This document shows, in pieces, positions 19,127 to 33,113 of a stretch of 40,074 nt of DNA (the stretch's first letter is position 1; each line of letters starts with the position of its first letter). The translations under genes and the position numbers were made by a program. The notes beneath the pieces are model-generated. The model saw nothing but the letters and a program-made list of their open reading frames with translations. It did not search any database and was not told the DNA's origin. This stretch comes from a virus. The stretch lies in the IMG/VR virus record IMGVR_UViG_3300019884_000004, positions 1-40,074 of that record. One strand, written 5' to 3'.

Positions 19127-19143
19127 AAATTAATACTTTTTAC

Positions 19144-19369: not shown

Positions 19370-19391
19370 TTATCATTGAAAGTTTGACATC

Positions 19392-19739
19392 ATGACACAA
19401 TCTATTGGCTCCTTCGCTCGCAATCTTATCGCTACTCGCAAGGACCTTAGCAATAGCCAAATTGCTGAGCTCGTTCGTGAGCAGTTCAAAGACCAAGGCG
19501 CTAAGACCACGATGAACTGCATCGCGTGGTACAAGTCCAACATGAAGAAGACTGGCTACAAAGCAGTCACAGTAGTGCAAGAGCGCACGCTGGCAGCAAT
19601 TCAAGCTGAGCTTGACGAGGCTAAGAATCTCGTTGAAATGCTTGAAGAAGAGTTAGAGCTCAAGAGCAACGAAGAAGCTGAAGAGATTAGAGCTAAGTTT
19701 GAGTACTACAAAGCTCTAGTAGAGAAGCAACAAGCGTAA
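19392..19739 (+). CDS. DNA-binding-like protein, family member A, 115 aa
   Basis: Residues 4-56 carry the shared domain: SIGSFARNLI, LSNSQIAELVREQF, then TTMNCIAWYKSNMKKTGYK. The T/S-N-x-x-I helix followed by the T-T/S-x-x-C-I-A-W-Y-K helix resembles a helix-turn-helix. Residues 65-115 are a Glu/Leu coiled coil (LDEAKNLVEMLEEELELK), suggesting oligomers. It is the first gene of the early arm, right after the GTAAYA array, and its strong similarity to the gene at 20621 shows a duplication. No strong Shine-Dalgarno. The DNA-binding function is an inference. Confidence 0.85.
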   Translation: MTQSIGSFARNLIATRKDLSNSQIAELVREQFKDQGAKTTMNCIAWYKSNMKKTGYKAVTVVQERTLAAIQAELDEAKNLVEMLEEELELKSNEEAEEIRAKFEYYKALVEKQQA

Positions 19740-19748
19740 AGTAGAACG

Positions 19749-19768
19749 AGTGGGGAGCAATCTCCACT
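19749..19768 (+). terminator. Short G-rich hairpin after family member A
   Basis: GGAG/CTCC stem with a CAAT loop, extended by three pairs across a two-base bulge, followed by CTCTTTTG. It is a weak terminator or attenuator in front of the small gene at 19788. Confidence 0.4.
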
Positions 19769-19787
19769 CTCTTTTGAAAGAAATACC

Positions 19788-19946
19788 ATGTTTGACGTAG
19801 TTACAAGTTACATCTGCCCACCCATTCCATTCAGAAATTATGACTGGTGTGCAACGTACGACGGTTATGAACCAGGCGATCCAATTGGATACGGCAGGAC
19901 AGAACAAGAAGCAATTCTAGACCTGCTCGAGCAACGCGAAGACTGA
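19788..19946 (+). CDS. Small conserved phage protein, 52 aa
   Basis: Reads MFDVVTSYICPPIPFRNYDW, CATYDGYEPGDPIGYGRTEQ and EAILDLLEQRED. The pattern PPIPxRxYDWxAxxDGYEPGDPxGxGxTExEAIxDLLE is typical of short proteins shared by many phages and prophages; their role is unknown. It follows family member A by 48 bases and is closed by a clear terminator, so the two probably share a transcript. Only a weak GAAAG precedes the ATG. Confidence 0.8.
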   Translation: MFDVVTSYICPPIPFRNYDWCATYDGYEPGDPIGYGRTEQEAILDLLEQRED

Positions 19947-19951
19947 GAGGG

Positions 19952-19976
19952 GGCCACATTAGTGGCCTTTTTCTTT
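19952..19976 (+). terminator. Rho-independent terminator
   Basis: Perfect GGCCAC-ATTA-GTGGCC stem-loop followed by TTTTTCTTT. It ends the first early transcript. Confidence 0.9.
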
Positions 19977-20159
19977 AACCCAAATACCCAGTGGGTTATA
20001 GAAAAGCGCTCGGCCGACGGCCAGGGGGCGACAATCTAAGTACTTCGGCCAATGCTCGTTGACTTTTGATTGGCATGTGTCGCGAGGCATGCGCAAAAAA
20101 AATTTCAGCAATTTATATACGGCCATAGGATAGGATGATCGTATATATTATATATTGTG

Positions 20160-20190
20160 ATCACATCACAATCACATCACAATCACACGC
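20160..20190 (+). repeat. 11-bp tandem repeat next to a -10 hexamer
   Basis: ATCACATCACA at 20160-20170 and again at 20171-20181, then a partial third copy ATCACACGC directly abutting TATAAT at 20191. The inner palindrome TGTGATCACA (20156-20165) overlaps the first copy. It occupies the place of the -35 and spacer, as expected for an operator. Confidence 0.7.
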
Positions 20191-20196
20191 TATAAT
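20191..20196 (+). promoter_or_regulatory. Possible regulated promoter (-10 only)
   Basis: TATAAT directly after the 11-bp repeats, without a recognisable -35. If active it would transcribe the noncoding stretch 20203-20394 and then the genes from 20395. It could need an activator bound to the repeats. Confidence 0.35.
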
Positions 20197-20333
20197 ATAT
20201 TAATTAGTTTGGTAAAAGATATGTATTTGCCACGACGATTGTTCCCCCTTCAAGCAACAACCACGAACAATGCGGTTCAAACTCCAGGTCTACGGTGTGG
20301 TACATCTTGTAACGATATTGGCAAAAAAAGTAG

Positions 20334-20362
20334 TTTACATGGAAGAAAAACCATGATATAAT
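20334..20362 (+). promoter_or_regulatory. Sigma70-type promoter before family member C
   Basis: TTTACA (20334-20339), 17-base spacer, TATAAT (20357-20362). The start would be near 20369, giving a leader of about 25 bases. The initial transcript contains ACACAAAATT, also found just after the promoter at 22245. No GTAAYA pair stands in front of this one. Confidence 0.85.
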
Positions 20363-20394
20363 TATATCTTAGACACAAAATTTCACTAGAAAAT

Positions 20395-20619
20395 ATGAAA
20401 AAATTTGAAACAATTAGAGAGTATGTGTTCTATCAACTTTCAATTGATTTCCATCAAACAAATGATGAGATCAAGAAAAAGACCAGACGATATTTCTACG
20501 GATCAAAGACAAGCATCGCCAACATCATTTTTTATAGAAAGGAGTTTGAAAAACAAAGGCCCGAAATTGTCTCCCCCCTGCATCAAGTGATTCTCAACTC
20601 ATTCAAGAAGGTTAAGTAA
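20395..20619 (+). CDS. DNA-binding-like protein, family member C, 74 aa
   Basis: A diverged member of the same family: TIREYVFYQL, then TNDEIKKKTRRYF, then SKTSIANIIFYRKEFEKQ, aligning with SIGSYARELI, SNQEIRDMVLLRF and AKTSIACIAWYKSNMKK of the next gene. It lacks the coiled-coil tail and is more basic. It sits first behind a strong promoter and one base before member B, so the two are co-transcribed. No clear Shine-Dalgarno in its 25-base leader. The function is inferred to be DNA binding. Confidence 0.75.
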   Translation: MKKFETIREYVFYQLSIDFHQTNDEIKKKTRRYFYGSKTSIANIIFYRKEFEKQRPEIVSPLHQVILNSFKKVK

Positions 20620-20620
20620 A

Positions 20621-21007
20621 ATGTCAAATTCTATTGGTTCTTACGCTCGTGAACTCATCATTGCCCATCCCGATAAATCTAATCAAGAAATTCGTGATAT
20701 GGTTCTTCTCAGGTTCACGGAAGCCAAAACAAGCATTGCCTGTATTGCCTGGTACAAGTCGAACATGAAGAAGACAGGCTTCAAATCTGCCCCCCCTCCA
20801 CGGACTCTAGAAGTAGTTGAAGAAGAGATCATCTCGGTCAAGTTGAAGTTGGCTTCACTTGAAGAAGAGTACGAGTACATGAAGATCGAGCAACAAGAAG
20901 AGATCAAGAAGAACTACGAGTATTACAAGTCGCTCCTCGAGAAAGTTGAGAAGCCTGAAGAAGAAACAGAAGAGAATGAAGAAGAGCAACAAGAAGAGAG
21001 CAAATAA
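20621..21007 (+). CDS. DNA-binding-like protein, family member B, 128 aa
   Basis: Residues 3-55 hold the family domain (SIGSYARELI, SNQEIRDMVLLRF, AKTSIACIAWYKSNMKKTGF). A SAPPP linker follows, then a coiled coil (about 65-110, EEEIISVKLKLASLEEEYEY) and a very acidic tail (EEETEENEEEQQEESK). The layout domain-linker-coiled coil is the same as in the protein at 19392. The acidic tail may contact polymerase or modulate DNA binding. That is a guess. Confidence 0.85.
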   Translation: MSNSIGSYARELIIAHPDKSNQEIRDMVLLRFTEAKTSIACIAWYKSNMKKTGFKSAPPPRTLEVVEEEIISVKLKLASLEEEYEYMKIEQQEEIKKNYEYYKSLLEKVEKPEEETEENEEEQQEESK

Positions 21008-21094
21008 ATGAGCATAGCAGAAGCAATCATGGTCTGGATCGTCATAGTGTCAATTGGAGCTCTTCTCGAGTTGGTTAGCAAGGAAGACAAATGA
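21008..21094 (+). CDS. Mini membrane protein, 28 aa
   Basis: MSIAEAIMVWIVIVSIGALL followed by ELVSKEDK: one hydrophobic helix and a charged C-terminus. The ATG comes right after the previous stop (TAAATG), and its own stop overlaps the next start as ATGA. This tight coupling is the main evidence that so short a frame is real. Confidence 0.55.
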   Translation: MSIAEAIMVWIVIVSIGALLELVSKEDK

Positions 21095-21177
21095 GCTTCT
21101 GGGAGTGGTTCTGGACGGTGTCAGTTTTGGCATCGATCATCGTCATCGTGATCTTTTATGCAGGAGGCAAGAAATGA
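21091..21177 (+). CDS. Mini membrane protein, 28 aa (second)
   Basis: MSFWEWFWTVSVLASIIVIV followed by IFYAGGKK: an aromatic N-terminus, one TM helix and a basic end. ATGA overlaps join it to the 28-aa gene before it and the 89-aa gene after it. Two tandem single-TM mini-proteins of the same length could be partners in the inner membrane. No homology recognised. Confidence 0.55.
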   Translation: MSFWEWFWTVSVLASIIVIVIFYAGGKK

Positions 21178-21443
21178 AATTGTTAGCTAGGACAAAGGAC
21201 TTTGCAACAGGTGCAAAATGGTCCGACTGGGAAGAGTGCGAAGACACAGTGGGTCTCACAGAAGAAGAGTGCAAAGAGCTGATACATGAATGGTCTGATC
21301 TGCCCTCCCTTCAGATCGTGAATGACACAGCAAGTTGGGCGACGCCCTACGAGTTCGAGGAAATCAAGATTGTTCACGACAAGTTTGATGTTGAGTGTTA
21401 TAACAAGATCATGAACGGAACATATCTCAAGAACGGAAAGTAA
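21174..21443 (+). CDS. Unknown protein, 89 aa
   Basis: I chose the ATG at 21174, whose ATGA overlaps the stop of the preceding mini-protein; AGGAGG lies about nine bases upstream. Begins MKLLARTKDFATGAKWSDWE, acidic in the middle (GLTEEECKELIHEWSDLPSL), and ends NGTYLKNGK. No recognised family. A longer in-frame upstream extension would run through both mini-protein genes and is unlikely. It is followed by a G-rich hairpin. Confidence 0.65.
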   Translation: MKLLARTKDFATGAKWSDWEECEDTVGLTEEECKELIHEWSDLPSLQIVNDTASWATPYEFEEIKIVHDKFDVECYNKIMNGTYLKNGK

Positions 21444-21449
21444 CAGGTC

Positions 21450-21474
21450 AAGGGGGTAATCAATCTGCCCCCTT
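21450..21474 (+). terminator. G-rich hairpin after the 89-aa gene
   Basis: AAGGGGG/CCCCCTT seven-base stem with an 11-base loop, followed by CTCC rather than a U-run. Attenuator or mRNA-stability element rather than a strong terminator. Confidence 0.45.
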
Positions 21475-21513
21475 CTCCTGGTGCTTTTGCCAGATCAGAT
21501 ATAGGAGACACAT

Positions 21514-21702
21514 ATGTTCAAAGTGACACAAATTTTAGAGACAGGTGAGGAATGCACGGCGTACGAAGGCAGCGAGGTTCAATGTTATGCCTGGATCCAC
21601 GAGAATTGTGATGATTATCCAGAGTCTCAGTTCGCTGTCGAAGATTCTGCCCCCCCTCCGCACTATCCGGAATATGACGACTTCGAGGATGATGAAGTAT
21701 GA
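21514..21702 (+). CDS. Small acidic protein, 62 aa
   Basis: AGGAGA stands at good spacing before the ATG. The sequence begins MFKVTQILETGEECTAYEGS, has an aromatic/Cys middle (CYAWIHENCDDY) and ends with APPPHYPEYDDFEDDEV. Highly acidic C-terminus. Phage proteins this small and acidic can be DNA mimics or host-enzyme inhibitors, but there is no direct sign of either here. Its stop overlaps the next start as ATGA. Confidence 0.7.
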   Translation: MFKVTQILETGEECTAYEGSEVQCYAWIHENCDDYPESQFAVEDSAPPPHYPEYDDFEDDEV

Positions 21703-21950
21703 ACAAAGTTCATGCATGTCTTTTAGCTCTGGCTACAGCCATGAGCATCGCGGTTCTTCACTCTACGTACGCCGTCGAGTATGAGTATGCCACAGAGTCG
21801 GAGCAGGAATGCTTCACTGATAGCTGCGTAGGTTGCATTGACGACTGTCTCAAGGCCGAACAATATGTGGACGACTTCTTAAAGGAACAAGATGCGAGAA
21901 TCAACAAAGTCACCAAGAACCCTGCACATCCGCACAACACTAGATATTAG
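21699..21950 (+). CDS. Secreted Cys-rich protein with signal peptide, 83 aa
   Basis: The N-terminus MNKVHACLLALATAMSIAVL with HSTYA is a signal peptide (basic start, hydrophobic core, likely cleavage after TYA). The mature part, about 58 aa, starts VEYEYATESEQE and contains a cluster CFTDSCVGCIDDC with regular spacing, suited to disulfides or metal. It is encoded in the early arm among regulators, coupled by ATGA to the gene before it. An early exported phage protein could alter the envelope, for example to exclude superinfecting phage. This is inference. Confidence 0.7.
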   Translation: MNKVHACLLALATAMSIAVLHSTYAVEYEYATESEQECFTDSCVGCIDDCLKAEQYVDDFLKEQDARINKVTKNPAHPHNTRY

Positions 21951-21954
21951 TCCT

Positions 21955-22197
21955 ATGCAAGAACAATCAATAGAATTAGATTGCCCCCCAGGATGGGCTA
22001 GGCCGGACTACTTCATAGCCGAGGTCATCAAAGGCACAGGCCTAGAATTAAGAGAACCGGTGTTTAAATGGTTCGGCAACTGGAAGTGGGACTACAGCGA
22101 CGTACAAGAAGAACAATGGCTTACACTCCGCCCCCTCCTGAAGAAGCGAATCGAGTCCTTGTTCGAGCGTGGCGTAATTAGATACGGGAGCTGGTAG
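21955..22197 (+). CDS. Conserved phage protein, 80 aa
   Basis: Start taken at ATG 21955 (MQEQSIELDCPPGWARPDYF), because the upstream in-frame extension overlaps the secreted-protein gene and lacks a start signal. Motifs: CPPGWARPDYFIAEVIKGTG, then FKWFGNWKWDYSD and LLKKRIESLFERGVIRYGSW. This pattern is shared by many short phage proteins of unknown function. The gene ends just before a strong promoter with GTAAYA boxes. Confidence 0.75.
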   Translation: MQEQSIELDCPPGWARPDYFIAEVIKGTGLELREPVFKWFGNWKWDYSDVQEEQWLTLRPLLKKRIESLFERGVIRYGSW

Positions 22198-22200
22198 GAT

Positions 22201-22250
22201 GCAACAGGAAGTAACAGGGTATTTACATTGAGTAAAATCCGTGTTATAAT
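22201..22250 (+). promoter_or_regulatory. Sigma70 promoter with paired GTAAYA boxes
   Basis: GCAACA (22201) and GTAACA (22211) are 10 bases apart. The second starts 11 bases before TTTACA (22222-22227). A 17-base spacer follows, then TATAAT (22245-22250) with TG one base ahead (extended -10). The arrangement is identical at 26772-26821 and 32346-32395. Confidence 0.9.
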
Positions 22251-22284
22251 ATATTTTAAACACAAAATTGGAAGTTATAGTCCC

Positions 22285-22473
22285 ATGAAGAAAGATCTAG
22301 ACCAGATGAGCAAGATTGAGTTGCTAGAATATTCTAAGAGGGCAAGATACATGTTAGGCAAAGTCTATAGTGAAAGGATGGAATTAGAGAAAGAATTAGC
22401 AGAATCAAAGCTAGAGTTGCTCAAACTCAAGAAACAATTAGCACAAACAGTGGCCCCCAAGAAAGACCAATGA
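22285..22473 (+). CDS. Coiled-coil protein, 62 aa
   Basis: Starts MKKDLDQMSKIELLEYSKRA. An upstream in-frame TTG lies inside the promoter, so transcription would begin after it; the ATG at 22285 with GGAAG before it is the credible start. Leu/Glu/Lys heptads (MELEKELAESKLELLKLKK) predict a coiled coil over most of the length, ending APKKDQ. It could be a partner of the family proteins with coiled-coil tails, but nothing in the sequence proves that. Confidence 0.7.
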   Translation: MKKDLDQMSKIELLEYSKRARYMLGKVYSERMELEKELAESKLELLKLKKQLAQTVAPKKDQ

Positions 22474-22483
22474 GGAATTGAAA

Positions 22484-22699
22484 TTGAAGATTCAAAAGTT
22501 AGGCGTTAGGCCTCCCGCGAAGTGCCAGCTCTGTCATGAGCCAATAGTAGATGTGTTCATCGACGGAGCCACAAAGACAGGACAATGGGCCTATATGTGC
22601 ACAGCATGCCATCTAATACATGGCTATGGACTAGGCATCGGACGTGGTCAAAGATACGTTAGGAAAGCAGATCAACAATGGGTAAAGACAAGCAAATGA
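22484..22699 (+). CDS. Zinc-ribbon protein, about 71 aa
   Basis: There is no ATG. Two in-frame TTG codons lie at 22478 and 22484, and GAGGA at 22472 is at good spacing for the second. CQLC (with HEPIVDVF after) and CTAC in AYMCTACHLIHGYGLG form a CxxC-x(about 22)-CxxC zinc ribbon. The ending GRGQRYVRKADQQW is basic. The pattern CxLCxxPIxDxFxDGxTxxGxWAxMCxxCHxxxGxGLGxGxGQxY is common in small phage proteins of unknown role. Confidence 0.75.
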   Translation: MKIQKLGVRPPAKCQLCHEPIVDVFIDGATKTGQWAYMCTACHLIHGYGLGIGRGQRYVRKADQQWVKTSK

Positions 22700-22821
22700 A
22701 AGCAGCACATCTCTATAACACGGGTCTCTACTCTAAGACCGACTACATAATAGATCGGGCTTTGATGGCAGTCATTGTCATCCTGCTATTGGTCTATCCA
22801 TTCATGGTTTGGGTTGTTTAA
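22696..22821 (+). CDS. Mini membrane protein, 41 aa
   Basis: MKAAHLYNTGLYSKTDYIID then RALMAVIVILLLVYPFMVWV V: a polar N-terminus and one long hydrophobic helix reaching the C-terminus (tail-anchored type). ATGA overlap with the zinc-ribbon gene stop indicates coupling. It is followed by a small terminator. Unknown function. Confidence 0.55.
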   Translation: MKAAHLYNTGLYSKTDYIIDRALMAVIVILLLVYPFMVWVV

Positions 22822-22830
22822 TCAATATCG

Positions 22831-22849
22831 CCCCCACTCCGGGGGTTTT
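22831..22849 (+). terminator. Short terminator or attenuator
   Basis: CCCCC-ACTCC-GGGGG stem-loop followed by TTTTAC. A short stem but all G-C. It sits between the 41-aa membrane gene and the gene at 22863. Confidence 0.6.
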
Positions 22850-22862
22850 ACAAGGGGAAAGT

Positions 22863-23069
22863 ATGGCTACAGTGACACACAAGGATATAGTTGATGAGAT
22901 CATCAAGGGCAACGGCGTCTATCAAGGTGATCCGCCAGTGTACAGCATCGTGGAGTATCAGAGTGCATTTGGTAGTACCTGCTGGGGATTGAACTACACA
23001 CGTGAGAATCATTATGACTTCTCGGACTATGTGCATAACCCTAAAGTGATCTTTGAAAGGAAAGAATGA
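22863..23069 (+). CDS. Unknown protein, 68 aa
   Basis: The ATG at 22863 is preceded by AAGGGGAAAG. Begins MATVTHKDIVDEIIKGNGVY, continues DPPVYSIVEYQSAFGSTCWG with NYTRENHYDFSDYVHNPKV, and ends FERKE. The order of a helical start followed by strands with paired aromatics looks globular. No family recognised. Its stop region overlaps the next start. Confidence 0.7.
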   Translation: MATVTHKDIVDEIIKGNGVYQGDPPVYSIVEYQSAFGSTCWGLNYTRENHYDFSDYVHNPKVIFERKE

Positions 23070-23332
23070 TGAGAAAGACAAATCTGAAGTTGGTCTCTAT
23101 TGGTGGCAAGAAGGTTGAACGTCCTCGGCCGGTTGTATGCGACTACAAATTCAAGCATAAAGAGAAAGAAACACATTCCAGAACGCCAGAACAGGCAGTG
23201 GTTGCAGCAGTCAAAAGGATCCTGGCCAAGGAGTATACGTCAGGTGCCATCTATGACAAGAACAACAAGCTTGTTGCCATAGTGCGCAAAGTCCAGGGCA
23301 AGATCTTCTTAGAAGGCAAGCTGTTCAAATGA
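23066..23332 (+). CDS. Small basic protein, 88 aa
   Basis: Two adjacent start codons (23066 and 23069), the first overlapping the stop of the previous gene. Lys/Arg/Val-rich: MRKTNLKLVSIGGKKVERPR, then KHKEKETHSRTPEQAVVAAV and a C-terminal beta hairpin (NKLVAIVRKVQGKIFLEGKL). It may bind nucleic acid on account of charge; no known domain. The stop overlaps the LuxR-type gene as ATGA. Confidence 0.65.
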   Translation: MMRKTNLKLVSIGGKKVERPRPVVCDYKFKHKEKETHSRTPEQAVVAAVKRILAKEYTSGAIYDKNNKLVAIVRKVQGKIFLEGKLFK

Positions 23333-23517
23333 AACTCACGCCAAGACAGAAAGAAATCATAGTCTTGGCTGGTCAGGGGACGAGCACAACAGAGATAGCA
23401 AAGAAGCTCTCGATCGCCCCCGCCACAGTGACTAAGCACTTTCGCAATATCTTCTTGAAGCTCAACATCAAAAGCAAATCTCTTGTTCTAATAGGAAGAT
23501 CAACAAACCATGACTGA
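23329..23517 (+). CDS. Stand-alone LuxR/GerE-type HTH protein, 62 aa
   Basis: MKLTPRQKEIIVLAGQGTST then TEIAKKLSIAPATVTKHFRN and IFLKLNIKSKS: the complete GerE pattern L-T-x-R-x-x-E-x-x-x-L-A-x-G-x-x-x-x-E-I-A-x-x-L-x-I-x-x-x-T-V-x-x-H-x-x-N-I-x-x-K-L. There is no receiver or ligand-binding domain, only the DNA-binding unit. It is likely a phage transcription regulator for the middle or late switch. It is coupled to the preceding gene (ATGA). Confidence 0.85.
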   Translation: MKLTPRQKEIIVLAGQGTSTTEIAKKLSIAPATVTKHFRNIFLKLNIKSKSLVLIGRSTNHD

Positions 23518-23734
23518 ATGGATCAAATCGCCAGACCCTTATGACAACACCAAGACTCTACGAGAGAACAAGACTCGTGATCGTGGTACCATTGAGTGCA
23601 ATCAGTGTGGCTCCCCTGTCAAGCTGAATGCCGCGATGTACCCGCCTGACTACTGTGCACAATGTGATAAGTGCAACTGCCTATACAATCTGAGTGGCCA
23701 GGAGCTCAAGCCTAAGGATCAGTGGGAAGAATGA
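23510..23734 (+). CDS. Zinc-ribbon protein, 74 aa
   Basis: Begins MTEWIKSPDPYDNTKTLREN. CNQCGSPVKLN and CAQCDKCNC provide CxxC pairs about 20 residues apart, a zinc ribbon, with one extra CxC. The start overlaps the LuxR-type gene by eight bases. It is the last gene before a clear terminator, so it ends the small-gene operon. It may act in transcription or in nucleic-acid binding. No closer match. Confidence 0.7.
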   Translation: MTEWIKSPDPYDNTKTLRENKTRDRGTIECNQCGSPVKLNAAMYPPDYCAQCDKCNCLYNLSGQELKPKDQWEE

Positions 23735-23742
23735 TAACCAAG

Positions 23743-23769
23743 ACGTACGCCCTAAAAAGCGTACGTTTT
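23743..23769 (+). terminator. Rho-independent terminator
   Basis: ACGTACGC/GCGTACGT perfect eight-base stem, eight-base A-rich loop, then TTTG. It separates the small-gene operon from the replication operon. Confidence 0.8.
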
Positions 23770-23804
23770 GTCACAAAAGTTTCTAAAAGAATATAAAATA
23801 GGAT

Positions 23805-23833
23805 TGTACAAAGGAACAAAAAAGAACTATAAT
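23805..23833 (+). promoter_or_regulatory. Promoter of the primase-helicase operon
   Basis: TGTACA (23805-23810), 17-base spacer, TATAAT (23828-23833). No GTAAYA pair in front. The leader to the ATG at 23872 is about 32 bases. Confidence 0.75.
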
Positions 23834-23871
23834 TAATATTCAAGTGCGCTAATAATTTAACAAGGGGTATT

Positions 23872-25881
23872 ATGGCAGAATTAGCCTTGGCTAGACCACT
23901 AGCCTCAAATGATCAGTTGTCATTCCAGTTTATGTATGAGGATTTGGCGAAGTCTGGCTTAACTCAAGAAGACGTCAGATCATATCCAGTAGCCCCGATA
24001 GCGATGGGCACATGTCCTGGGTATTGCATCCCATATGCAGATCCTCGTATGTATCGTATTAGGTACAAGCGCGACGAGGACAAGTACATCCAACCTAAAG
24101 GCATAGTCAGCGTCTGGTGGTCTCACACTCAGAACAAAGAAGCATTCCGCACTGCCCCCACTCTATACATCATTGAGGGGGAGAAGAAGGCAGCCAAATT
24201 CGTAAAGACATGGCCGCATCTTCCAACACTCGGGATTGGCGGTTGCTGGATGTTCCTCAAGAAGAGTGATACTGGGGCACGAATGCTGCTCCCCGAGATC
24301 CTCAGCTGCTTAACTCCAGGCATGAATGTTGTGGTCATCTTTGACAGTGACATTATGTCTAAGCCAACGGTTCAAAACGCCGCATATGCTCTAAACCAAT
24401 TGCTCCTTCAGCAAGGCTGCAACCTCAAGTTATTTCGTACACCTACAGGTAAGGGCGTTGACGACTGGCTCGTGGCAAGCCCAGGGGCAACGCTCCATGA
24501 CCTCAAAGAAATACCGCTCGAGCAACTCGAGGTAGGGCGAAAGGCAGTGTACGATGTACTTGGTCTTCTTCTCTCAGATAAAGGTCTTCCAATCCCAAAT
24601 GAACATAATCTACAAAAGCTAATCAAGTTCTATCTTGGTGATAGCTTAATTTGTGATAAGAGGCAAGGCCTAAAGCGTAATGGCAAGTATGTCTCGACCA
24701 GATCACTTATGGGTGAATTAGTCAACTATATCCAAGGGCAACATATTGCCAATGCCTATGTCTCACGCATTGAGAATGCTCTCGAATACTTTGTTGAAGA
24801 AATCCAATGTGACTTAGTTAAGGAAAGATTTCTTGCTTTAGAATGGGACGAAGAGGAACGACTTAATACATGGGGCCAAGAATACTTTGAATCTGACATG
24901 CCTGAGTACTGTGCTGAGTGGGGCAGATTGCTAATGACAGCACTTGCACTTAGAGTCATTTATCCAGGTACAAAGGTCGACTTCATTCCGATTCTAATCG
25001 GCCCCCAGTCTATCGGAAAGACCACATTCTTCGAAGACCTATCAGTATTCGATGGCGAAAGATACTATTATAGCTGTAGCAATCTTACACCAGACCGCGG
25101 TGACGACCAACGTACTCAATGCACTGCGTTTAATGCAAACGTTGTTATTGACCTCGGGGAGGGGGCAGCATTCGACCCGCGTAAACTCAGCCAAGAAAAC
25201 TTCAAGCAGTTCATCACGCAGGTCCAGGACGAGTTCAGGCCTCCCTATAGCAAGTCGACCGTAAAGATTCCACGCAGCTTCATTTTCGTTGGCACATCAA
25301 ATAGGCGTGACCAGATCGCCGATCGTTCTGGTAGTAGACGTTTCCTCCCTATCTATGTGTCAAAAGTCCAACGGCTCCCATATGAGGAGAAGCTCCAGAT
25401 CTTGGCTGAGGTTGTAGCTAAGCGTCATGAGATTACAGATACAAGATGGTATGACCTGAACGTAGATTGGAACAAAATGCCTCTTCCTCTTAAAGAGAGC
25501 ATGCCACATATACATGATGTTCAAACACTTGTCAATACTCAGTTTGATAAGGGTGATACCTTCTCGGACTATGTTCTTAAACTACTTGAAGCAGGAGAGG
25601 CAGCACGATACAGAAACATTACATACTCTACTCTTGAAGGCGATCTGTTTATATCTAGTGGTTATCTTTCAGCTAGGTATACATATAAGATACAAGAAAG
25701 TCATGCTAGAGCAAGGCTCAATGACCTAGCGCTTAGTCCTACATTCCCGTGGAAGCTCGAAGTAAACAGGCCACGTCTCAGTCAATTAATAATACCAGAA
25801 GGCTATCTGGCATATTATACTGATGGTGTGGGTGATCCAGGTCAAATGTTAACAGGTTTTAAAGCGAGGAAAAAGACATGA
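23872..25881 (+). CDS. Primase-helicase (Toprim-like + SF3/VirE-type helicase)
   Basis: 669 aa, with AAGGGG before the ATG. The N-terminal part has a Toprim-like module: IIEGEKKAAK (E102) and VVVIFDSD (D158, D160), as in DUF3854-type phage primases. The C-terminal part is an SF3-like ATPase: Walker A GPQSIGKT (377-384), Walker B VVIDLGE (424-430), sensor FVGTSN (472-477) and arginine finger GSRRFLPI (487 onward). It should prime and unwind DNA at the phage fork. It is the first gene of its operon and overlaps the ligase gene by ATGA. Confidence 0.9.
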   Translation: MAELALARPLASNDQLSFQFMYEDLAKSGLTQEDVRSYPVAPIAMGTCPGYCIPYADPRMYRIRYKRDEDKYIQPKGIVSVWWSHTQNKEAFRTAPTLYIIEGEKKAAKFVKTWPHLPTLGIGGCWMFLKKSDTGARMLLPEILSCLTPGMNVVVIFDSDIMSKPTVQNAAYALNQLLLQQGCNLKLFRTPTGKGVDDWLVASPGATLHDLKEIPLEQLEVGRKAVYDVLGLLLSDKGLPIPNEHNLQKLIKFYLGDSLICDKRQGLKRNGKYVSTRSLMGELVNYIQGQHIANAYVSRIENALEYFVEEIQCDLVKERFLALEWDEEERLNTWGQEYFESDMPEYCAEWGRLLMTALALRVIYPGTKVDFIPILIGPQSIGKTTFFEDLSVFDGERYYYSCSNLTPDRGDDQRTQCTAFNANVVIDLGEGAAFDPRKLSQENFKQFITQVQDEFRPPYSKSTVKIPRSFIFVGTSNRRDQIADRSGSRRFLPIYVSKVQRLPYEEKLQILAEVVAKRHEITDTRWYDLNVDWNKMPLPLKESMPHIHDVQTLVNTQFDKGDTFSDYVLKLLEAGEAARYRNITYSTLEGDLFISSGYLSARYTYKIQESHARARLNDLALSPTFPWKLEVNRPRLSQLIIPEGYLAYYTDGVGDPGQMLTGFKARKKT

Positions 25882-26765: not shown

Positions 26766-26771
26766 TTGGGT

Positions 26772-26821
26772 GTAATAGAGTGTAACAGGGCATTTACAAC
26801 GGGAGAAAAAGGCGTTATAAT
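26772..26821 (+). promoter_or_regulatory. Sigma70 promoter with paired GTAAYA boxes
   Basis: GTAATA (26772), GTAACA (26782), TTTACA (26793-26798), 17-base spacer, TATAAT (26816-26821). Box spacing is 10 and 11 bases, as in the other two copies. The transcript would start near 26828, at the foot of a GCAAC/GTTGC hairpin (26829-26843). Confidence 0.9.
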
Positions 26822-26856
26822 TAATATAGCAACAGCACGTTGCGCTAGGAGATTAG

Positions 26857-27240
26857 ATGGAACTAAAAGAGTTAGGTACTACTATAGATGCTCTCTACTC
26901 ACTAAGGCAATCCCGCCTCGAGAAGCAGAGAGAAATAGACGAGATGAAGGCGCACGAAGCTCACCTCAGGCAAGCTATTATAGCTATGCTCGAGGATGCT
27001 GGACTCGCCAAAGCCTCAGGTGGTATGGCTACCGCAGGGATTACGTTAAAAGTTGAACCGTTAGTAACAGATTGGGATCCAGTATTTGAGTATATCAGAA
27101 AGGAAAACAAATTTGAATTGATTCAAAAGAGAATTAGTGCTCCAGCATGGCGAGAGCTGAAAGAGTCAGGTATCTTGGTGCCTGGCACCGAAGAGAATCC
27201 AGTAGTTGATATTTCTTTAACTAAGTCTACAAGGGGTTAA
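26857..27240 (+). CDS. Conserved phage protein of the replication module, 127 aa
   Basis: TAGGAG precedes the ATG. A long N-terminal helix (LGTTIDALYSLRQSRLEKQR, EIDEMKAHEAHLRQA) is followed by a motif VEPLVTDWDPVFEYIRKENK and by RISAPAWRELKESG with IPG/VPGTEENP after it, ending DISLTKS. This pattern recurs in phages right before SSB-like genes, with no known activity. It is first behind a boxed promoter. Confidence 0.8.
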   Translation: MELKELGTTIDALYSLRQSRLEKQREIDEMKAHEAHLRQAIIAMLEDAGLAKASGGMATAGITLKVEPLVTDWDPVFEYIRKENKFELIQKRISAPAWRELKESGILVPGTEENPVVDISLTKSTRG

Positions 27241-27243
27241 GTA

Positions 27244-27912
27244 ATGGCCACAGATCTGACAACCATACAAGAGCGGATTGCACAACAGATCGCTCGACAG
27301 CAAGAGACAGCAAGTGGGCTTCGTACCACAGGTGCATTCATCAAGTTCAAAAATGCCCAGATGAAGATAGATGGCACACCGATACCGAACAACATGGTCG
27401 ATGTGCGAGTTCTGGCAGCAGTGGGAGAGCGAACATATTATGAAGGAGAGTACGACGCCGACAAGGTACAAGTTCCTGATTGTTATGCTGTCAATAGTGA
27501 TAAACCTCATCCTGAGGCGGCGCATCCTCAAAGTGAGCTCTGCAGGGACTGTCCACATAACAAGTGGGGCACAGGACCTAGAAAGCGCGGAAAGGCCTGT
27601 CGTGAAGGTGCTCGTATCGTGGTTATACCGGCTAATGTCCCGCTGAAGACAGCTCCCCTTTATATGGCTAAAATCCCAATCACCTCTCTAAGCACAGTCA
27701 CGGCGTTCACCTCGAGATGCAGTCAGTCTGGCAAAATGATGGGTGAATTTGTTACACAGTTGTCTGTGGTCGAAGACAACAAGTCATTCTTCAAAGTACA
27801 TCTCAATATCAAGGAAATTACCGCGGATATGGACCAGGCAGAACTCTTGGCAAAGCAAGATGAGGCATTTGACCTGGCTACATCTCCATACCCGGATATT
27901 GAGACAACCTAG
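27244..27912 (+). CDS. Probable single-stranded-DNA-binding-like protein
   Basis: 222 aa. The central Cys motif CRDCPHNKWGTGPRKRGKAC lies at about 100-119 and may hold zinc. The C-terminal part has strands and an acidic tail (ATSPYPDIETT). Proteins with a C-x-x-C-P-x-N-x-W-G-x(n)-G-K-x-C motif occur in the replication regions of many phages and are suspected SSB analogues. It lies between the primase-helicase/ligase operon and the DNA polymerase genes. The SSB role is an inference from context and composition. Confidence 0.6.
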   Translation: MATDLTTIQERIAQQIARQQETASGLRTTGAFIKFKNAQMKIDGTPIPNNMVDVRVLAAVGERTYYEGEYDADKVQVPDCYAVNSDKPHPEAAHPQSELCRDCPHNKWGTGPRKRGKACREGARIVVIPANVPLKTAPLYMAKIPITSLSTVTAFTSRCSQSGKMMGEFVTQLSVVEDNKSFFKVHLNIKEITADMDQAELLAKQDEAFDLATSPYPDIETT

Positions 27913-27928
27913 ATTACAGTCCCCTTGT

Positions 27929-27948
27929 CATCGGTGCAGTTGCCGATG
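27929..27948 (+). other. Perfect 6-bp stem-loop
   Basis: CATCGG, an eight-base loop, then CCGATG. It lies just before the terminator at 27955 and may aid termination or protect the 3' end of the SSB-like message. Confidence 0.5.
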
Positions 27949-27954
27949 TCTTTA

Positions 27955-27986
27955 TCCCGAGCGGTCAACACTGCTCGGGACTTTTT
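27955..27986 (+). terminator. Rho-independent terminator
   Basis: TCCCGAGC/GCTCGGGA perfect eight-base stem, ten-base loop, then CTTTTTCC. It ends the SSB-like transcript. No promoter is evident between it and 28006, so the polymerase genes may depend on read-through. Confidence 0.85.
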
Positions 27987-28005
27987 CCACTTTAAGGATT
28001 AGTAT

Positions 28006-28242
28006 ATGCTGAAATTTGATGACAGGACCCAAAAGGCAATCGCCATCACGGAAATCCAATTACGCATAGCTGAATTACGTGGTTTAGCAAAGTTATTGAA
28101 AGAGGATAAAAAGGATAATAAAGATATGATGCGTAATGTTGAGCGCATAGCCAACATAGCATCATTTCAAATGAGCATCGAAGCACTTGAAAAGACTCTA
28201 CAAATCATAGGAGAAATAGATGCTGATATCTCTAGACTTTGA
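28006..28242 (+). CDS. Helical protein before DNA polymerase, 78 aa
   Basis: AAGGATTAG precedes the ATG at workable spacing. The whole chain looks alpha-helical and charged: TEIQLRIAELRGLAKLLKED, then SFQMSIEALEKTLQIIGEID. The gene overlaps the start of the exonuclease gene by 23 bases. No family is recognised. As first gene of the polymerase set it could be an accessory subunit, but that is context only. Confidence 0.65.
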   Translation: MLKFDDRTQKAIAITEIQLRIAELRGLAKLLKEDKKDNKDMMRNVERIANIASFQMSIEALEKTLQIIGEIDADISRL

Positions 28243-28780
28243 GTCCGAGGCCATCGCCCCCCGGCCGCTCTATCCTCCAAAGCCTGTGGGTTTAGCTACA
28301 TGGCAAGATGGTGAACCAAATGGTGGGTATAGTGCTTGGGGTCATCCAACAGGCAATAATGCTGATATAGAAATAGTAAAGCAAGCCTTAAAGAGTCTAC
28401 TTGAAAATGAAAATAATTGGTTTGTTTTTCATAACGCTCCTTTTGATTGTGATATTATCCAGGTACATTTTGGCATCAAAGTGCCCTGGGATCGTATACA
28501 TGATACTATGCTAATGGCTTTCCTTATGGATCCGTATGGGGAGCTATCATTAAAACCTTTAGCAGAGCGTCATCTCGGTGACCCTCCGGTTGAACGTGAC
28601 GTGGTTAGAGATTGGCTCGTACAACATGGTATTGTAAATGGTAATGCGAAAGACTGGGGTGCACACATTGCCAAAGCACCTGCAGAGATTGTTGGCCCCT
28701 ACGCTATAGGAGACGTACGTAAGACATTGAAGCTCTACAAATTTCTATTGCCAAAACTTCAAGCAAAGGGGATGATGTGA
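28220..28780 (+). CDS. DNA polymerase I 3'-5' exonuclease, separate protein
   Basis: 186 aa with all three DEDD exonuclease motifs: ExoI LDFES (D6, E8), ExoII FHNAPFD (H71, N72, D76) and ExoIII YAIGD (Y161, D165). This is the proofreading domain of a family A polymerase, encoded alone. AGGAGAAATAG stands before the ATG. Its stop overlaps the polymerase start as ATGA, so the two should be made in equal amounts and probably act as one complex. Confidence 0.9.
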   Translation: MLISLDFESEAIAPRPLYPPKPVGLATWQDGEPNGGYSAWGHPTGNNADIEIVKQALKSLLENENNWFVFHNAPFDCDIIQVHFGIKVPWDRIHDTMLMAFLMDPYGELSLKPLAERHLGDPPVERDVVRDWLVQHGIVNGNAKDWGAHIAKAPAEIVGPYAIGDVRKTLKLYKFLLPKLQAKGMM

Positions 28781-30060
28781 ACGCATATGAACGAGAAATA
28801 CGGCTGATGCCGCATACCATTGCAATGGAGGAACGTGGCATACATATAGATGTCCCCCTCCTTCGCCAGGACATGAACTTCTACTTTGACAAGATGTCAG
28901 AAATGGACGACTTCATCTCGGCAAAGTGTATGCGCAAGGTCGACGTGGATAGCAATGACCAACTCGCCGATGCGATCGAAGCAAATGGTTTGTCCAAAGG
29001 TTTTGCTTCCACACCGACAGGCAGACGTAGTACCTCAAAAGAGTCATTGATGGGGGCCATAGCTGATCCTGAATTGCTTGGTGCATTGCTCATCCGTGGA
29101 TCACTAGCTACTTGTCTTAGGACGTTCTATCAGCCTTGGCATGCAGCCGCTCGAAAAACAGGAAAGCTTTATGTCAAATGGAACCAAATCAGAAATTACT
29201 CCGATACTGGTGCTAGAACAGGACGATTCAGCTCTTCGCCAAATTTCCAAAACGTACCTACAGACTGGGACAAATTGCTTGTACAGCTTGGAAGTATTGG
29301 ATACAAGCTTAGTTTTCCGTTGCCACAGATGCGGAAATACATTATTCCTGCACCTGGATTCGTTCTTATTGGGAGAGACTACAGGTCACAGGAGATGCGG
29401 CTCCTAGCACACTTCACAGGTGGGGCACTGATGGAGGCACTCATAGCTAATCCTGAGCTAGATGTCCATGAGATTGCAGGAAAGCTTGCAAATATCTCGA
29501 GGAAGTTATCAAAGACTATGGGCTTTGCCATCTTGTATGGTGCAGGTGCACCTCGAGTGGCAGAGCAGTTGGGCATCACGGTATATGAATCTAGAGACCT
29601 TAAGGCACGATATCTTAGGGCTATGCCTGAGATCAAGAAGTTCACGAAGGAGATCAATGATAAAGCTGCTTTCGGCGAAGGAATAACCACACTCGGAGGT
29701 CGGTATTATGCAATTCAGTCCCCCTCCATTATCAAAGGTGTGTTAAAATCATTTGAATATAAGTTGGTGAACTATAAGATTCAAGGTTCAGCAGCAGACC
29801 ACACAAAGGAGGCTATGTACACTTATAGTACCACCACAAAGACAGGGCATCTATTATTGACGGTTCATGACCAACTCGTCGCCGAGGTGCCAGAGGATGA
29901 TATAGAGTCTGAGCGTAAGATCTTCGCCAATGCAATGGACAGTTCATTTGCAGATGTGCTAAAGGTAAAGATGCTCTCAGATGAAAAGATTGGTCATAAT
30001 TTTGCTAGTCTTGAAGCATTTGAAACAGACAAAATAGCAGAACTTATTGGAGTAAGTTAA
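28777..30060 (+). CDS. Family A DNA polymerase, polymerase domain
   Basis: 427 aa, the fingers/palm/thumb part only. Motif A is GRDYRSQEMR (D201, E206, R208). Motif B is RKLSKTMGFAILYG (R242, K246, F250, Y254). The region NYKIQGSAADHTKEAM is typical. Motif C is TVHDQLVAEVP, where HDE is normal: D365 is kept but the Glu is Gln366. Phe250 at the Phe762 position indicates discrimination against dideoxynucleotides. The exonuclease is the preceding gene. Together they replicate the phage genome. Confidence 0.92.
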   Translation: MNAYEREIRLMPHTIAMEERGIHIDVPLLRQDMNFYFDKMSEMDDFISAKCMRKVDVDSNDQLADAIEANGLSKGFASTPTGRRSTSKESLMGAIADPELLGALLIRGSLATCLRTFYQPWHAAARKTGKLYVKWNQIRNYSDTGARTGRFSSSPNFQNVPTDWDKLLVQLGSIGYKLSFPLPQMRKYIIPAPGFVLIGRDYRSQEMRLLAHFTGGALMEALIANPELDVHEIAGKLANISRKLSKTMGFAILYGAGAPRVAEQLGITVYESRDLKARYLRAMPEIKKFTKEINDKAAFGEGITTLGGRYYAIQSPSIIKGVLKSFEYKLVNYKIQGSAADHTKEAMYTYSTTTKTGHLLLTVHDQLVAEVPEDDIESERKIFANAMDSSFADVLKVKMLSDEKIGHNFASLEAFETDKIAELIGVS

Positions 30061-30725
30061 TGGAAAAGCAGATCTTATTTAAACAACCGTGGGGCTTTTC
30101 AAAGCTCGACGTATTCCGAACTTGTCATGCAAAGTTTAAGTACCAATTCATTGACAAGTTGCCTCAACCCAGCAGTGCAGCACTTGAACGTGGGGGCGAA
30201 ATTCATGAAGCCATTGAAAGTTATCTTAATGGATGGGCGACGACGCTTCCTCAAGAAGTGGAGCCGTGGAAAGATGCATTGGATCTCATTAAAAAGGAAG
30301 ATTATCATGGAGAAAAAGCCATCGGAATCGCGCGTGATTGGAGAATCCTCGCCGATTGGTTCCACCCCAGCACCTGGCTCAGAGTCAAAATGGATACCTA
30401 CTATAGGAGCAAACAAAAGCTCCACGTCATCGACTACAAGTCAGGAAAATATCGTGTCCCCTCCACCGACCAAGTCGAGCTCTATGCCATCGCAGGAGTC
30501 TCAATCTACCCCGACATCGACGAAGTCGAAGCCGAGTTCTGGTTCATCGACACTGGTGACATCTATAAGAAACTTTATAAAAGGGAAGAGCTGATTGAGC
30601 TCCGCAAGAAGTATGAGCAAGAGTCAGACGCGATGTACGTCGAGGCACAATGGAAACCACAACCGTCTAAGGAGTGCCGATGGTGCCCCTATAGCAAGAC
30701 AAAGGGGGGGCCATGCCGCTATTAA
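30060..30725 (+). CDS. Cas4/RecB-like nuclease with Fe-S-type cysteines
   Basis: 221 aa. SKLDVFRTCHAKFKYQF gives the first Cys; RGGEIHEAIESYL holds the conserved His; LRVKMDTYY holds the Asp; VIDYKSGK is the D-x-K of the PD-(D/E)XK centre; ECRWCPYSKTKGGPC supplies three C-terminal cysteines. The Cys-1 + Cys-3 pattern is that of 4Fe-4S exonucleases of the Cas4/AddB type. It is likely a 5' or end-processing exonuclease for recombination. The start shares TAATG with the polymerase stop. Confidence 0.85.
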   Translation: MEKQILFKQPWGFSKLDVFRTCHAKFKYQFIDKLPQPSSAALERGGEIHEAIESYLNGWATTLPQEVEPWKDALDLIKKEDYHGEKAIGIARDWRILADWFHPSTWLRVKMDTYYRSKQKLHVIDYKSGKYRVPSTDQVELYAIAGVSIYPDIDEVEAEFWFIDTGDIYKKLYKREELIELRKKYEQESDAMYVEAQWKPQPSKECRWCPYSKTKGGPCRY

Positions 30726-31087
30726 AGCGTGAGGCAGAGATAGAGTTCGAGTGTCGTGTAATAGCTGAAAGGACAAAATGCAAACTACTGAAGATCCAGG
30801 GAGTGAAGGGTTGGCCAGACAGGATATTGTTGATGCCGACAGGGAACGTCGCATTCCTCGAATTCAAGACCCCAAGTGGCCAATTGTCCCCCCTCCAGGT
30901 CCACCACATGACAATGCTAAGATCGATGGGGTTCCCGATCTTCGTTCCGAGGTCGAAAGAGCAATTTCAGCAAATTATATCTCTGATGCTTTCGCTGCCA
31001 GCAACTGGGAGCCTAGACCATATCAAGTACGTGGCGTCGACTGGCTCCTACGACCTGAAGCAGCTCTCTTCCTTCCTCCTGGACTAG
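30713..31087 (+). CDS. VRR-NUC family nuclease
   Basis: 124 aa. The core is GVKGWPDRILLMPTGNVAFL, then EFKTPSGQLSPLQ, with catalytic D (PDR), E-x-K (EFK) and Q. Then comes the MGFPIFVPRSKEQFQQII end typical of the family. Such small VRR-NUC proteins in phages resolve branched DNA. The last 35 residues are extra compared with usual members. Its 3' 310 bases are also the 5' end of the helicase gene, read in another frame. Confidence 0.88.
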   Translation: MPLLKREAEIEFECRVIAERTKCKLLKIQGVKGWPDRILLMPTGNVAFLEFKTPSGQLSPLQVHHMTMLRSMGFPIFVPRSKEQFQQIISLMLSLPATGSLDHIKYVASTGSYDLKQLSSFLLD

Positions 31088-32349
31088 GTAAGACGGCGAT
31101 GGGCCTTATGGCAATAGTGATGCTCAGAGCCATGAAGCTCAACTATAGGACTTTAGTTTTGGCCCCCAAGACAGTCTGTATCACCACGTGGATGACAGAA
31201 CCGAAGAAGTGGGCACAATTCCAGGGCCTTAAGGTTGGCTTCGCGTGGGGGCCAGATACTCGAGAAAAAGTGTTACTTAATCAATCTTACGATATAGTGG
31301 TGATGAACTATGATGGTCTTGCTTGGGCTGCACCGTTGCTGGCAAAAGGTCACACTTTTGGAGTATTGCTTTGTGATGAGATTACAAGGCTTAAAAACCC
31401 TCAGTCTAAACGTTTTAAAATACTCAAGCCTCTCCTTGATGGGTTTGCTTTTCGCTGGGGTTTCACTGGTACTCCTTGTGCTAACGGTTTGCTGGATCTA
31501 TTTGGACAAGTGTATATCCTGGATCAGGGGAGAAGGCTAGGCAAGTACATCACTCATTTCAGGTTCGCTTACTTCTACCAACTGCCCTATGACAAGTTCA
31601 GGTACTATATCACTGAGACACGTCAGAAGCAGTTGATAGATAAGATAAGCGACCTAGCTATGTACGTATCCGAGAAGGAATGGCTTGACCTCCCCGAGCT
31701 ATTGCATATCCCCATTCCGATTACGCTCGAGGAGAAGACAAGGAAGCAATACGACGCTCTCGAGAATGACTATATCCTAAAACTAAGTGATACAGCAGTC
31801 ACCGCCGCCAACGCCGGAGTACTTACCTCTAAACTGAGACAAGTGACAGGGGGAGCTGTCTATACTGAGTCTCCGGCCTGGTCAGAGGTAGGTACAGAGA
31901 AGCTTGACCGACTCGAAAGCCTAGTCGAAGAGATGGCAGGTGAACCACTCATCGTAGCTTATCTCTTTGAACATGAATTGATTAGGATAAAGAAGAAGTA
32001 TCCAAATGCATTAGTGATAAAGGGTGGGATGTCACCTAAAGCGGTGGCAATTACTGTAGAGGCATGGAACACAGGCAACGTACCACTACTACTGGTACAA
32101 CCTGCGTCTACGTCCCTAGGGCTTAACCTCCAGTTTGGGGGTGCAGCCATATGTTGGTTCTCTATGACTTACAACTTAGAGGACTTCATTCAGCAAGTGA
32201 AACGACTACATAGAAGCGGTCAGAAGAATGCCGTAAGAAACTACATGCTACTAGCAACAAAAACCATAGATGAAAGGGTCTCCGATGTACTAACCAGGAA
32301 GAATGCTACCCAAGATGATGTAAATGAAGCCCTTAAGTTCAAAATGTAA
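30778..32349 (+). CDS. SNF2-type helicase
   Basis: 523 aa. Motifs: I, FLPPGLGKTAMG; II, LLCDEITRLKN (DEIT in place of DEAH); III, GFTGTP; IV/V, VQPASTSLGLNLQ; VI, QQVKRLHRSGQ. The ATG at 30778 (AAAGGA before it) is the only in-frame start ahead of the helicase domain, which begins near WEPRPYQ. The N-terminal 75-80 residues look unstructured and come from sequence that also codes for the VRR-NUC protein. It probably remodels branched or bound DNA in phage recombination. Confidence 0.88.
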   Translation: MQTTEDPGSEGLARQDIVDADRERRIPRIQDPKWPIVPPPGPPHDNAKIDGVPDLRSEVERAISANYISDAFAASNWEPRPYQVRGVDWLLRPEAALFLPPGLGKTAMGLMAIVMLRAMKLNYRTLVLAPKTVCITTWMTEPKKWAQFQGLKVGFAWGPDTREKVLLNQSYDIVVMNYDGLAWAAPLLAKGHTFGVLLCDEITRLKNPQSKRFKILKPLLDGFAFRWGFTGTPCANGLLDLFGQVYILDQGRRLGKYITHFRFAYFYQLPYDKFRYYITETRQKQLIDKISDLAMYVSEKEWLDLPELLHIPIPITLEEKTRKQYDALENDYILKLSDTAVTAANAGVLTSKLRQVTGGAVYTESPAWSEVGTEKLDRLESLVEEMAGEPLIVAYLFEHELIRIKKKYPNALVIKGGMSPKAVAITVEAWNTGNVPLLLVQPASTSLGLNLQFGGAAICWFSMTYNLEDFIQQVKRLHRSGQKNAVRNYMLLATKTIDERVSDVLTRKNATQDDVNEALKFKM

Positions 32350-32395
32350 CGGGATGTAATAGGGTATTTACATTGGGCGAAATAGGCGTTATAAT
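32346..32395 (+). promoter_or_regulatory. Sigma70 promoter with paired GTAAYA boxes
   Basis: GTAACG (32346), GTAATA (32356), TTTACA (32367-32372), 17-base spacer, TATAAT (32390-32395). Third copy of the same layout. It drives family member D and, past a hairpin, the nucleotide genes. The first box contains the helicase stop codon. Confidence 0.9.
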
Positions 32396-32398
32396 TAT

Positions 32399-32425
32399 AT
32401 TTGTAGCTGCGAAAGCACTACAAAT
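32399..32425 (+). promoter_or_regulatory. 5'-terminal mRNA hairpin with GAAA tetraloop
   Basis: ATTTGTAG/CTACAAAT stem, one bulged C, then TGC-GAAA-GCA. The GNRA loop is a stable fold. It starts about where transcription should start, so the mRNA of member D would carry a terminal stem-loop that could protect it from decay. Confidence 0.65.
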
Positions 32426-32453
32426 TTCTAACTAATTTTTGAAAGATTTGAAA

Positions 32454-33113
32454 ATGGAAACAGCCAATTTGCAAGAGATGAGCTTCACTGATTTGCTTGA
32501 TATCTACACCACCCGTTGTGAAGAGTTGGGCAAGGAGCCAGATGATGCTCATAAGACTAAAGAGTCACTCATTGAGGCAATCAATGGGCTCCAAGGTAAT
32601 GGTGAAGACACTAGTGGTCAGGACACCGGGAATGCTGACTCTTCAGATAAGAAACAGAAGTACAATAGTTCCGGTAAGCGTGGTCCGAATCAAGGTATTG
32701 GTGCATTTGCCAAGGAACAGATTGTTCAAGGCAAAACAAATCAGGAAGTGCTCAACATGATAAATGAGCAGTTCCCTACAGCTAGGACTTCTATGTCTTG
32801 TATCGCCTACTACCGCAATGCGATCAAGAAGGGCAACGGTGGTGGAGGAGGCGGTAAGACTTCGGGCGATCCTGCTGCCCTCCGTGCCAAGGCTGCTGAG
32901 CTCATAGCAAAGGCAGAAGAGCTCGAGAAGAAGCAGCGTGAAGAAGGTGTAAAGGGCGACATTGAGTCCAAGATCCGTGCTGAAGTTGAAGAGCGTATCC
33001 GCGCCGAGGTTGAAGCGAAGTACGCCGAAGTCAGGAAGCAGATGGAGGCTGATGCCAAGAACATGGAGGAAGCCACGACGCCTCCTGACCAGCAGACACA
33101 ACCCGCCGAGTAA
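32454..33113 (+). CDS. DNA-binding-like protein, family member D, 219 aa
   Basis: The ATG at 32454 (METANLQEMSFTDLLDIYTT) is used because an upstream TTG has no better context. Residues 1-45 form a helical N-terminal module, followed by a polar linker. The family domain is at about 82-128: GIGAFAKEQI, TNQEVLNMINEQF, ARTSMSCIAYYRNAIKK. A Gly-run linker and a long charged coiled coil (RAKAAELIAKAEELEKKQRE onward) end the chain. It is the largest of the four members and lies behind a promoter carrying GTAAYA boxes, so it may regulate itself. Confidence 0.85.
   Translation: METANLQEMSFTDLLDIYTTRCEELGKEPDDAHKTKESLIEAINGLQGNGEDTSGQDTGNADSSDKKQKYNSSGKRGPNQGIGAFAKEQIVQGKTNQEVLNMINEQFPTARTSMSCIAYYRNAIKKGNGGGGGGKTSGDPAALRAKAAELIAKAEELEKKQREEGVKGDIESKIRAEVEERIRAEVEAKYAEVRKQMEADAKNMEEATTPPDQQTQPAE

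Follow-up and report, generated by a model that had tools for sequence, protein, structure and literature searches.

The 40,074-nucleotide stretch of viral DNA analyzed here (positions 1 to 40,074 of IMG/VR record IMGVR_UViG_3300019884_000004; hereafter the window) encodes four proteins that share a domain of about 50 residues. This domain defines an unrecognized domain family of phages, probably of the helix-turn-helix (HTH) type, whose genes are tied, in one uncultivated phage family, to a conserved operator-like box. The best explanation, and one that we favor with modest confidence, is a family of phage HTH regulators acting on direct repeats, both in autoregulation and at the promoters of the replication module. 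An earlier note, made by a model from the letters of the window, had listed four open reading frames (ORFs) with a common domain, and all four are present and intact:

19392..19739, plus strand: P0001, domain at about residues 3-55, then an acidic coiled-coil tail
20395..20619, plus strand: P0002, divergent short paralogue without a coiled coil, its end one base before the start of P0003
20621..21007, plus strand: P0003, domain, then an acidic coiled-coil tail
32454..33113, plus strand: P0004, N-terminal two-helix (HeH/SAP-like) unit, linker, domain at about residues 80-130, long coiled coil

A profile built without the P0002 row singled out exactly these four among the 650 window ORFs of at least 30 codons (82.5, 80.6, 77.9 and 19.3 bits; next-best ORF, 2.1 bits), with P0001, P0003 and P0004 as the strong members and P0002 as the weak one. 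On its own, P0002 scored 19.7 bits, more than 20,000 of 20,000 shuffles of its sequence (best shuffle 10.2). The motif is complete in P0001 (SIGSFA, SNSQI, AKTTMNCIAWYK) and P0003 (SIGSYA, SNQEI, AKTSIACIAWYK), nearly complete in P0004 (GIGAFA, TNQEV, ARTSMSCIAYYR) and partial in P0002, which is without the SIG helix motif and keeps the second half (TNDEI, SKTSIANIIFYR). The common domain is thus borne out for all four ORFs, with this partial motif in the weak member. P0001 and P0003 are 46% identical across 110 residues, tails included, and are paralogues over nearly their full length. P0001 is the first early gene past a divergent intergenic region; its orthologue in the related phage G001 has a best tblastn identity of 71%, and homologues in the other contigs of the family stand at 34-51%. 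For P0002, tblastn gave no match in the nearest phages, G001-G003.

Structure prediction, which the earlier note had proposed as a check along with the profile search, gave a confident basic three-helix unit. The AlphaFold2 model of P0003 (input of 48 aligned rows; mean predicted local distance difference test score, pLDDT, 90.6) has helices at residues 5-15, 21-31 and 39-51, at pLDDT 93-98, and then a long coil. Long tail helices are predicted at residues 63-110, or up to 127, of P0003 and at 140-207 of P0004, and the tail of P0001 is homologous to that of P0003, in agreement with the coiled-coil tails claimed for three members. The domain itself is basic (median isoelectric point 9.6; net positive charge in 90% of 58 members), and P0001 and P0003 have acidic tails. 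The best Foldseek hits in the PDB are weak (E about 1), and almost all of them belong to the HTH class: Lrp/AsnC, Fur/PerR, Pax paired domains, Sleeping Beauty RED and DeoR. In a viral structure library the best named matches include proteins of RDJL Phi 1, Xp12, Xoo-sp2 and JWX, and these matches come from phages of domain-carrying groups. The predicted fold is probably that of an HTH. PDB relatives proposed by sequence were discarded, the matches being only low-complexity or chance ones.

No convincing match over the domain was obtained in profile scans of Pfam and NCBIfam, and the earlier statement that the domain has no described function holds for these databases and for the literature searched. 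The profile search placed its relatives in five unnamed PHROGs (phrog_17205, phrog_38698, phrog_34102, phrog_17767 and phrog_21789), the only functional label among them being virion protein (phrog_21789). P0004 matches phrog_17205 over residues 57-208 (E = 3.3e-17), as do P0001 (2.8e-6) and P0003 (8.5e-6); P0002 is not significant. A tblastn search with P0004 matched 63 phage records, including gp21 of RDJL Phi 1 and the “TolA” proteins of ZQG1 and of a Stenotrophomonas phage, a name that appears to reflect the coiled coil only. The domain is present in 50 of the 51 records searched, which hold 1-6 copies each, and its carriers are tailed phages: Pamexvirus-like, Xiamenvirus and Steinhofvirus phages and the uncultivated family of the window. 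Several copies per genome are common in this group, and the four of the window, once considered a heavy investment for so small a genome, are not unusual because most domain-bearing records hold 2-6.

The domain is found with a coiled coil, behind a two-helix HeH/SAP-like unit, and fused to ribbon-helix-helix (RHH) domains (Pfam RHH_1/RHH_3) in Albimonas and Hyphomonas genomes and in contig L044; an RHH domain is also present in the fusion relative L059, and L061 lies below the cut-off. It also occurs in a protein that joins portal, domain and ADP-ribosyltransferase (L058, 2390-5053), and in two copies inside MuF-ADP-ribosyltransferase virion proteins of Pamexvirus-like phages (L172, 863-4453; L173, 626-4441). 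Virion proteins of this type are believed to enter the bacterial host by injection. In the four window proteins a Pfam scan found no RHH, portal, MuF or ADP-ribosyltransferase domain. The earlier note had held that detection as virion parts only would refute its DNA-binding reading; most copies are in fact small early or replication-module proteins encoded outside the virion genes, yet some do lie inside the MuF-ADP-ribosyltransferase proteins.

The boxes associated with these genes form one array and three twin-box promoters in the window:

19241..19369, no strand assigned: GYAAYR box array, in steps of about 9 base pairs (bp) and in inverted sets, three boxes on the minus strand and then six on the plus strand
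22201..22250, plus strand: twin-box promoter, GCAACA-N4-GTAACA, -35 TTTACA (22222), 17 bp, -10 TATAAT (22245), before ORF 22285-22473
26772..26821, plus strand: twin-box promoter before the DUF7307-like gene 26857-27240
32346..32395, plus strand: twin-box promoter, GTAACG-N4-GTAATA, -35 TTTACA (32367), -10 TATAAT (32390), before P0004

The array upstream of P0001 is the densest 200 bp of boxes in the window and sits in an AT-rich (78%) divergent intergenic region close to the GC-skew minimum. Within the 307 bp of 19085-19391, GTAAC/GTTAC occurs 10 times, against a mean of 1.5 and a maximum of 6 in 1000 shuffles. The three promoters share the arrangement GYAAYR-N4-GYAAYA-RGGYA-TTTACA-N17-TATAAT (3 sites, 0.00 expected), in which the starts of the twin boxes are 9-10 bp apart and the pair adjoins the -35 on its upstream side. 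Two of the four domain genes do lie behind such elements, as had been noticed before: P0001 behind the array and P0004 behind the twin box at 32346-32361. Repeats of a leader RNA that bind protein were rejected as an explanation, for the twin boxes are upstream of the promoters, so untranscribed from them, and DNA is simpler.

Orthologous genes of G001, G002 and G003 have twin-box promoters too, and so do the divergent phages G024, G050, G052, G060, G061 and G065. That at 26772 is kept before orthologues of the DUF7307-like gene in G001, G002, G003, G024, G050, G061 and G065, and that at 32346 before P0004 orthologues in G003, G004, G024, G052, G060 and G061. The densest box cluster of the record precedes the first domain gene in the window, in G001, G002 and G003 and in the distant G065, with 9-14 boxes per 200 bp against a shuffle maximum of 5-7. 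Among related phages outside the genus of the window (the window and G001-G003 left out), a twin box stands at most 320 bp upstream of 11 of 19 domain genes and of 6 of 409 other genes (Fisher p = 4e-13, a value that overstates the association, for promoters of domain genes helped to define the box, some contigs entered the set through their boxes and the genomes are related). At 200 bp the counts are 9/19 against 5/409, and 11/24 against 11/527 when the window and G001-G003 are included. Scans for the box by DNA alone covered 2.9 million viral contigs. The strict pattern, for which about 0.6 chance matches are expected in the collection by a rough estimate, matched four contigs; all four carry the domain and three are close relatives of the window. 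Two relaxed scans added 17 contigs not seen before, 5 of them with the domain. A domain gene lies directly downstream of a twin-box promoter in L087, L090, L095, L098 and L106 and, by gene coordinates, in G060. A changed box, made of GTCRCA pairs, occupies the same kind of position in G005 and G040.

DNA binding of the HTH type, which the earlier note had guessed, is the best-supported reading of the domain and is partly supported: the predicted basic three-helix fold, the HTH-like matches, the RHH fusions and the box association all point to it. We infer that the domain proteins bind GYAACA-type boxes and that the short paralogues dimerize. The unit of about 50 residues would then be a phage HTH DNA-binding domain, and P0001 and P0003 would be dimeric regulators, joined through their acidic coiled coils and reading the box with the basic HTH. 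Binding would be cooperative, on direct repeats about one helical turn apart. The array at the regulator's own gene would serve autoregulation, and the twin boxes just upstream of the -35 would control the replication-module promoters and that of P0004; from there a bound regulator could touch sigma or alpha and so activate, and repression could also be accommodated. P0004, encoded behind the helicase gene, would combine a putative second DNA-binding unit (HeH/SAP-like) with the domain, and is probably an accessory protein of the replication module.

Besides the overstated p-value, several observations weigh against such a regulator family. The PDB fold matches have E values of about 1, and a small bundle of three helices readily resembles an HTH. 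G005 has a different box with nearly the same third-helix sequence; the domain genes of G006 and G035 lack the box; and the upstream regions read for many domain genes of Pamexvirus-like and other phages showed no comparable GYAACA twin box. The box therefore does not accompany the whole domain family. Conversely, the relaxed-scan contigs G049, L093, L096 and L104 have the box and no detectable domain, and G062, whose capsid and terminase genes place it in the same family, has a twin-box promoter and no detectable domain protein. Behind that promoter (L101 7645, and the near-identical contigs, G062) is a 93-residue ORF with no Pfam match, winged-helix-like by eye.

Because of such cases a host factor has to be taken seriously as the binder, though we consider it somewhat unlikely: a host regulator, perhaps an OmpR-type winged helix, would use the boxes as its operators, and the domain genes would simply belong to its regulon. 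Many OmpR-type winged helices read direct repeats of about 10 bp beside the -35, and a position there would suit a host activator, as is generally known of pho- and Cpx-type boxes; the twin-box promoters of G062 and its near-identical contigs, G049, L093, L096 and L104, some of which may be chance or AT-rich matches, also fit this explanation. It is opposed by the densest box cluster lying right at a domain gene, as is typical of autoregulation, by the box letters changing together at several G005 promoters, and by hosts that probably differ between the phages. The HTH-like candidates identified among the proteins common to G003, G024 and G060 are the domain proteins. Another HTH protein is encoded in the window, a 62-residue ORF of the GerE/LuxR type (23329-23517; E = 1.7e-14) and the sole GerE match among the window ORFs scanned. 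It recurs in G002 and G003 and was rejected as the common box binder, being undetected in G001, G024 and G060, which retain boxes.

It is distinctly improbable that the arrays are instead iterons of a replication origin, with the domain proteins binding the origin or loading the replisome and any transcriptional effects secondary. The AT-rich divergent region near the GC-skew minimum, the ATCACA cluster at 20156 (see below), the P0004-type proteins behind the helicase in several phage groups, and the resemblance of acidic tips on many relatives (DPLD, DFLE) to the tails of single-stranded DNA-binding proteins (SSBs) are all consistent with an origin. Nonetheless, the sign of GC skew also switches with the direction of transcription, and the twin boxes at 22201, 26772 and 32346 lie exactly beside sigma-70-type promoters, a placement for which an origin has no need. 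Highly improbable is a domain devoted to protein-protein or virion functions and not to DNA binding; the copies inside the portal and MuF fusions fit such a role, but the basic surface, the HTH-like fold matches, the RHH fusions, the box association and the location of most copies outside the virion genes argue for DNA binding. A broader scheme, which we regard as rather doubtful, would have the paralogues of one genome split their DNA specificity, each with its own iteron set (GYAACA before P0001, ATCACA before P0002-P0003), and together control how the replication module is transcribed and perhaps also the firing of an origin, the domain being reused in replication-module proteins and virion-borne effectors.

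The operon of P0002 and P0003 has a different upstream region:

20156..20193, no strand assigned: cluster of ATCACA/TGTGAT iterons (6 within 80 bp) in a non-coding, AT-rich stretch ahead of the P0002-P0003 operon
20334..20362, plus strand: promoter of the P0002-P0003 operon, TTTACA, 17 bp, TATAAT, without a twin box

The P0003 orthologues of G001, G002 and G003 are preceded by a similar promoter and the iteron cluster is conserved in the same three phages; it is a candidate for a separate operator or an origin. The divergent intergenic region before P0001 also holds, at 18953-19011, two ACCAAGTGACGGATTTTG-like sequences 33 bp apart, and two copies are likewise found in G001.

Relatives of P0004 are encoded behind the helicase in Pamexvirus, ZQG1, Xiamenvirus and Steinhofvirus, and in PaMx28, ZQG1, RDJL Phi 1 and JWX directly behind it and near thyA and dCMP deaminase. 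The order in the window is similar: DNA polymerase (28777), PD-(D/E)XK nuclease (30060), SNF2 helicase (30778), P0004 (32454), a nucleotide gene (33159) and thymidylate synthase (33440), the last identified from sequence and position. Many helicase-linked relatives end in acidic tips (DPLD, DFLE, DPLA), which hint that P0004 is itself an SSB; JWX, which has a P0004 relative, also has a DUF2815 protein, a family we take to be SSB-like, and this assignment was not adopted. The family A DNA polymerase of the window is split into an exonuclease ORF (28220-28780) and a polymerase ORF (28777-30060), and both pieces recur in relatives, separated by about 320 bp in G061 and by about 890 bp in G050. 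The DUF7307-like gene at 26857-27240, a weak Pfam match, falls in a PHROG labeled minor head protein and lies inside the replication module; the virion label is doubtful. Elsewhere, 23872-25881 encodes a primase-helicase with DUF3854 and VapE-like domains, and a 1087-residue ORF on the minus strand (36539-39802) matches nothing in Pfam and a PHROG only weakly.

The domain is thus present in several groups of tailed phages, usually in multiple copies, and is without a curated family or a function in the literature searched. Its association with the box turns a “hypothetical protein” into one half of a testable regulator-operator pair. If the pair were confirmed, a phage group that is without a transcription circuit would have one, many phage genes would gain a name, and there would be a reason for the presence of one domain in small early proteins, replication-module proteins and virion-borne effectors.

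The mechanism proposed is of a known kind; the family and its putative operator are new. With the GerE/LuxR HTH the likeness is slight: helices 2-3 aligned once to a LuxR-type response regulator (12-row profile, E = 0.05), an alignment that was gone with a 58-row profile, and no domain member matches Pfam GerE (PF00196). Lambda CII is an HTH protein that acts on direct repeats at phage promoters. The C repressor of P2 also binds direct repeats, at its switch promoter (PMC4752584). To both, the resemblance lies in HTH proteins on direct repeats at phage promoters, and no sequence relation was found; the repeats bound by P2 C have a spacing of 22 bp and lie on either side of the -10, whereas the twin boxes of the window are 9-10 bp apart and adjoin the -35 from upstream. 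Apl of phage 186 and other recombination directionality factors regulate early promoters and bind cooperatively to nearby direct repeats with a spacing of 10-11 bp (PMC7498355). The domain has no sequence relation to Apl that we could find and no profile match in Pfam or NCBIfam to a known family, and no integrase was noticed among the window genes scanned, a subset of the ORFs. The boxes of the window are likewise direct repeats about one helical turn apart (9-10 bp from start to start), and their putative binder, distinguished from Apl by the coiled-coil tails of its family, would work alike if the model is right.

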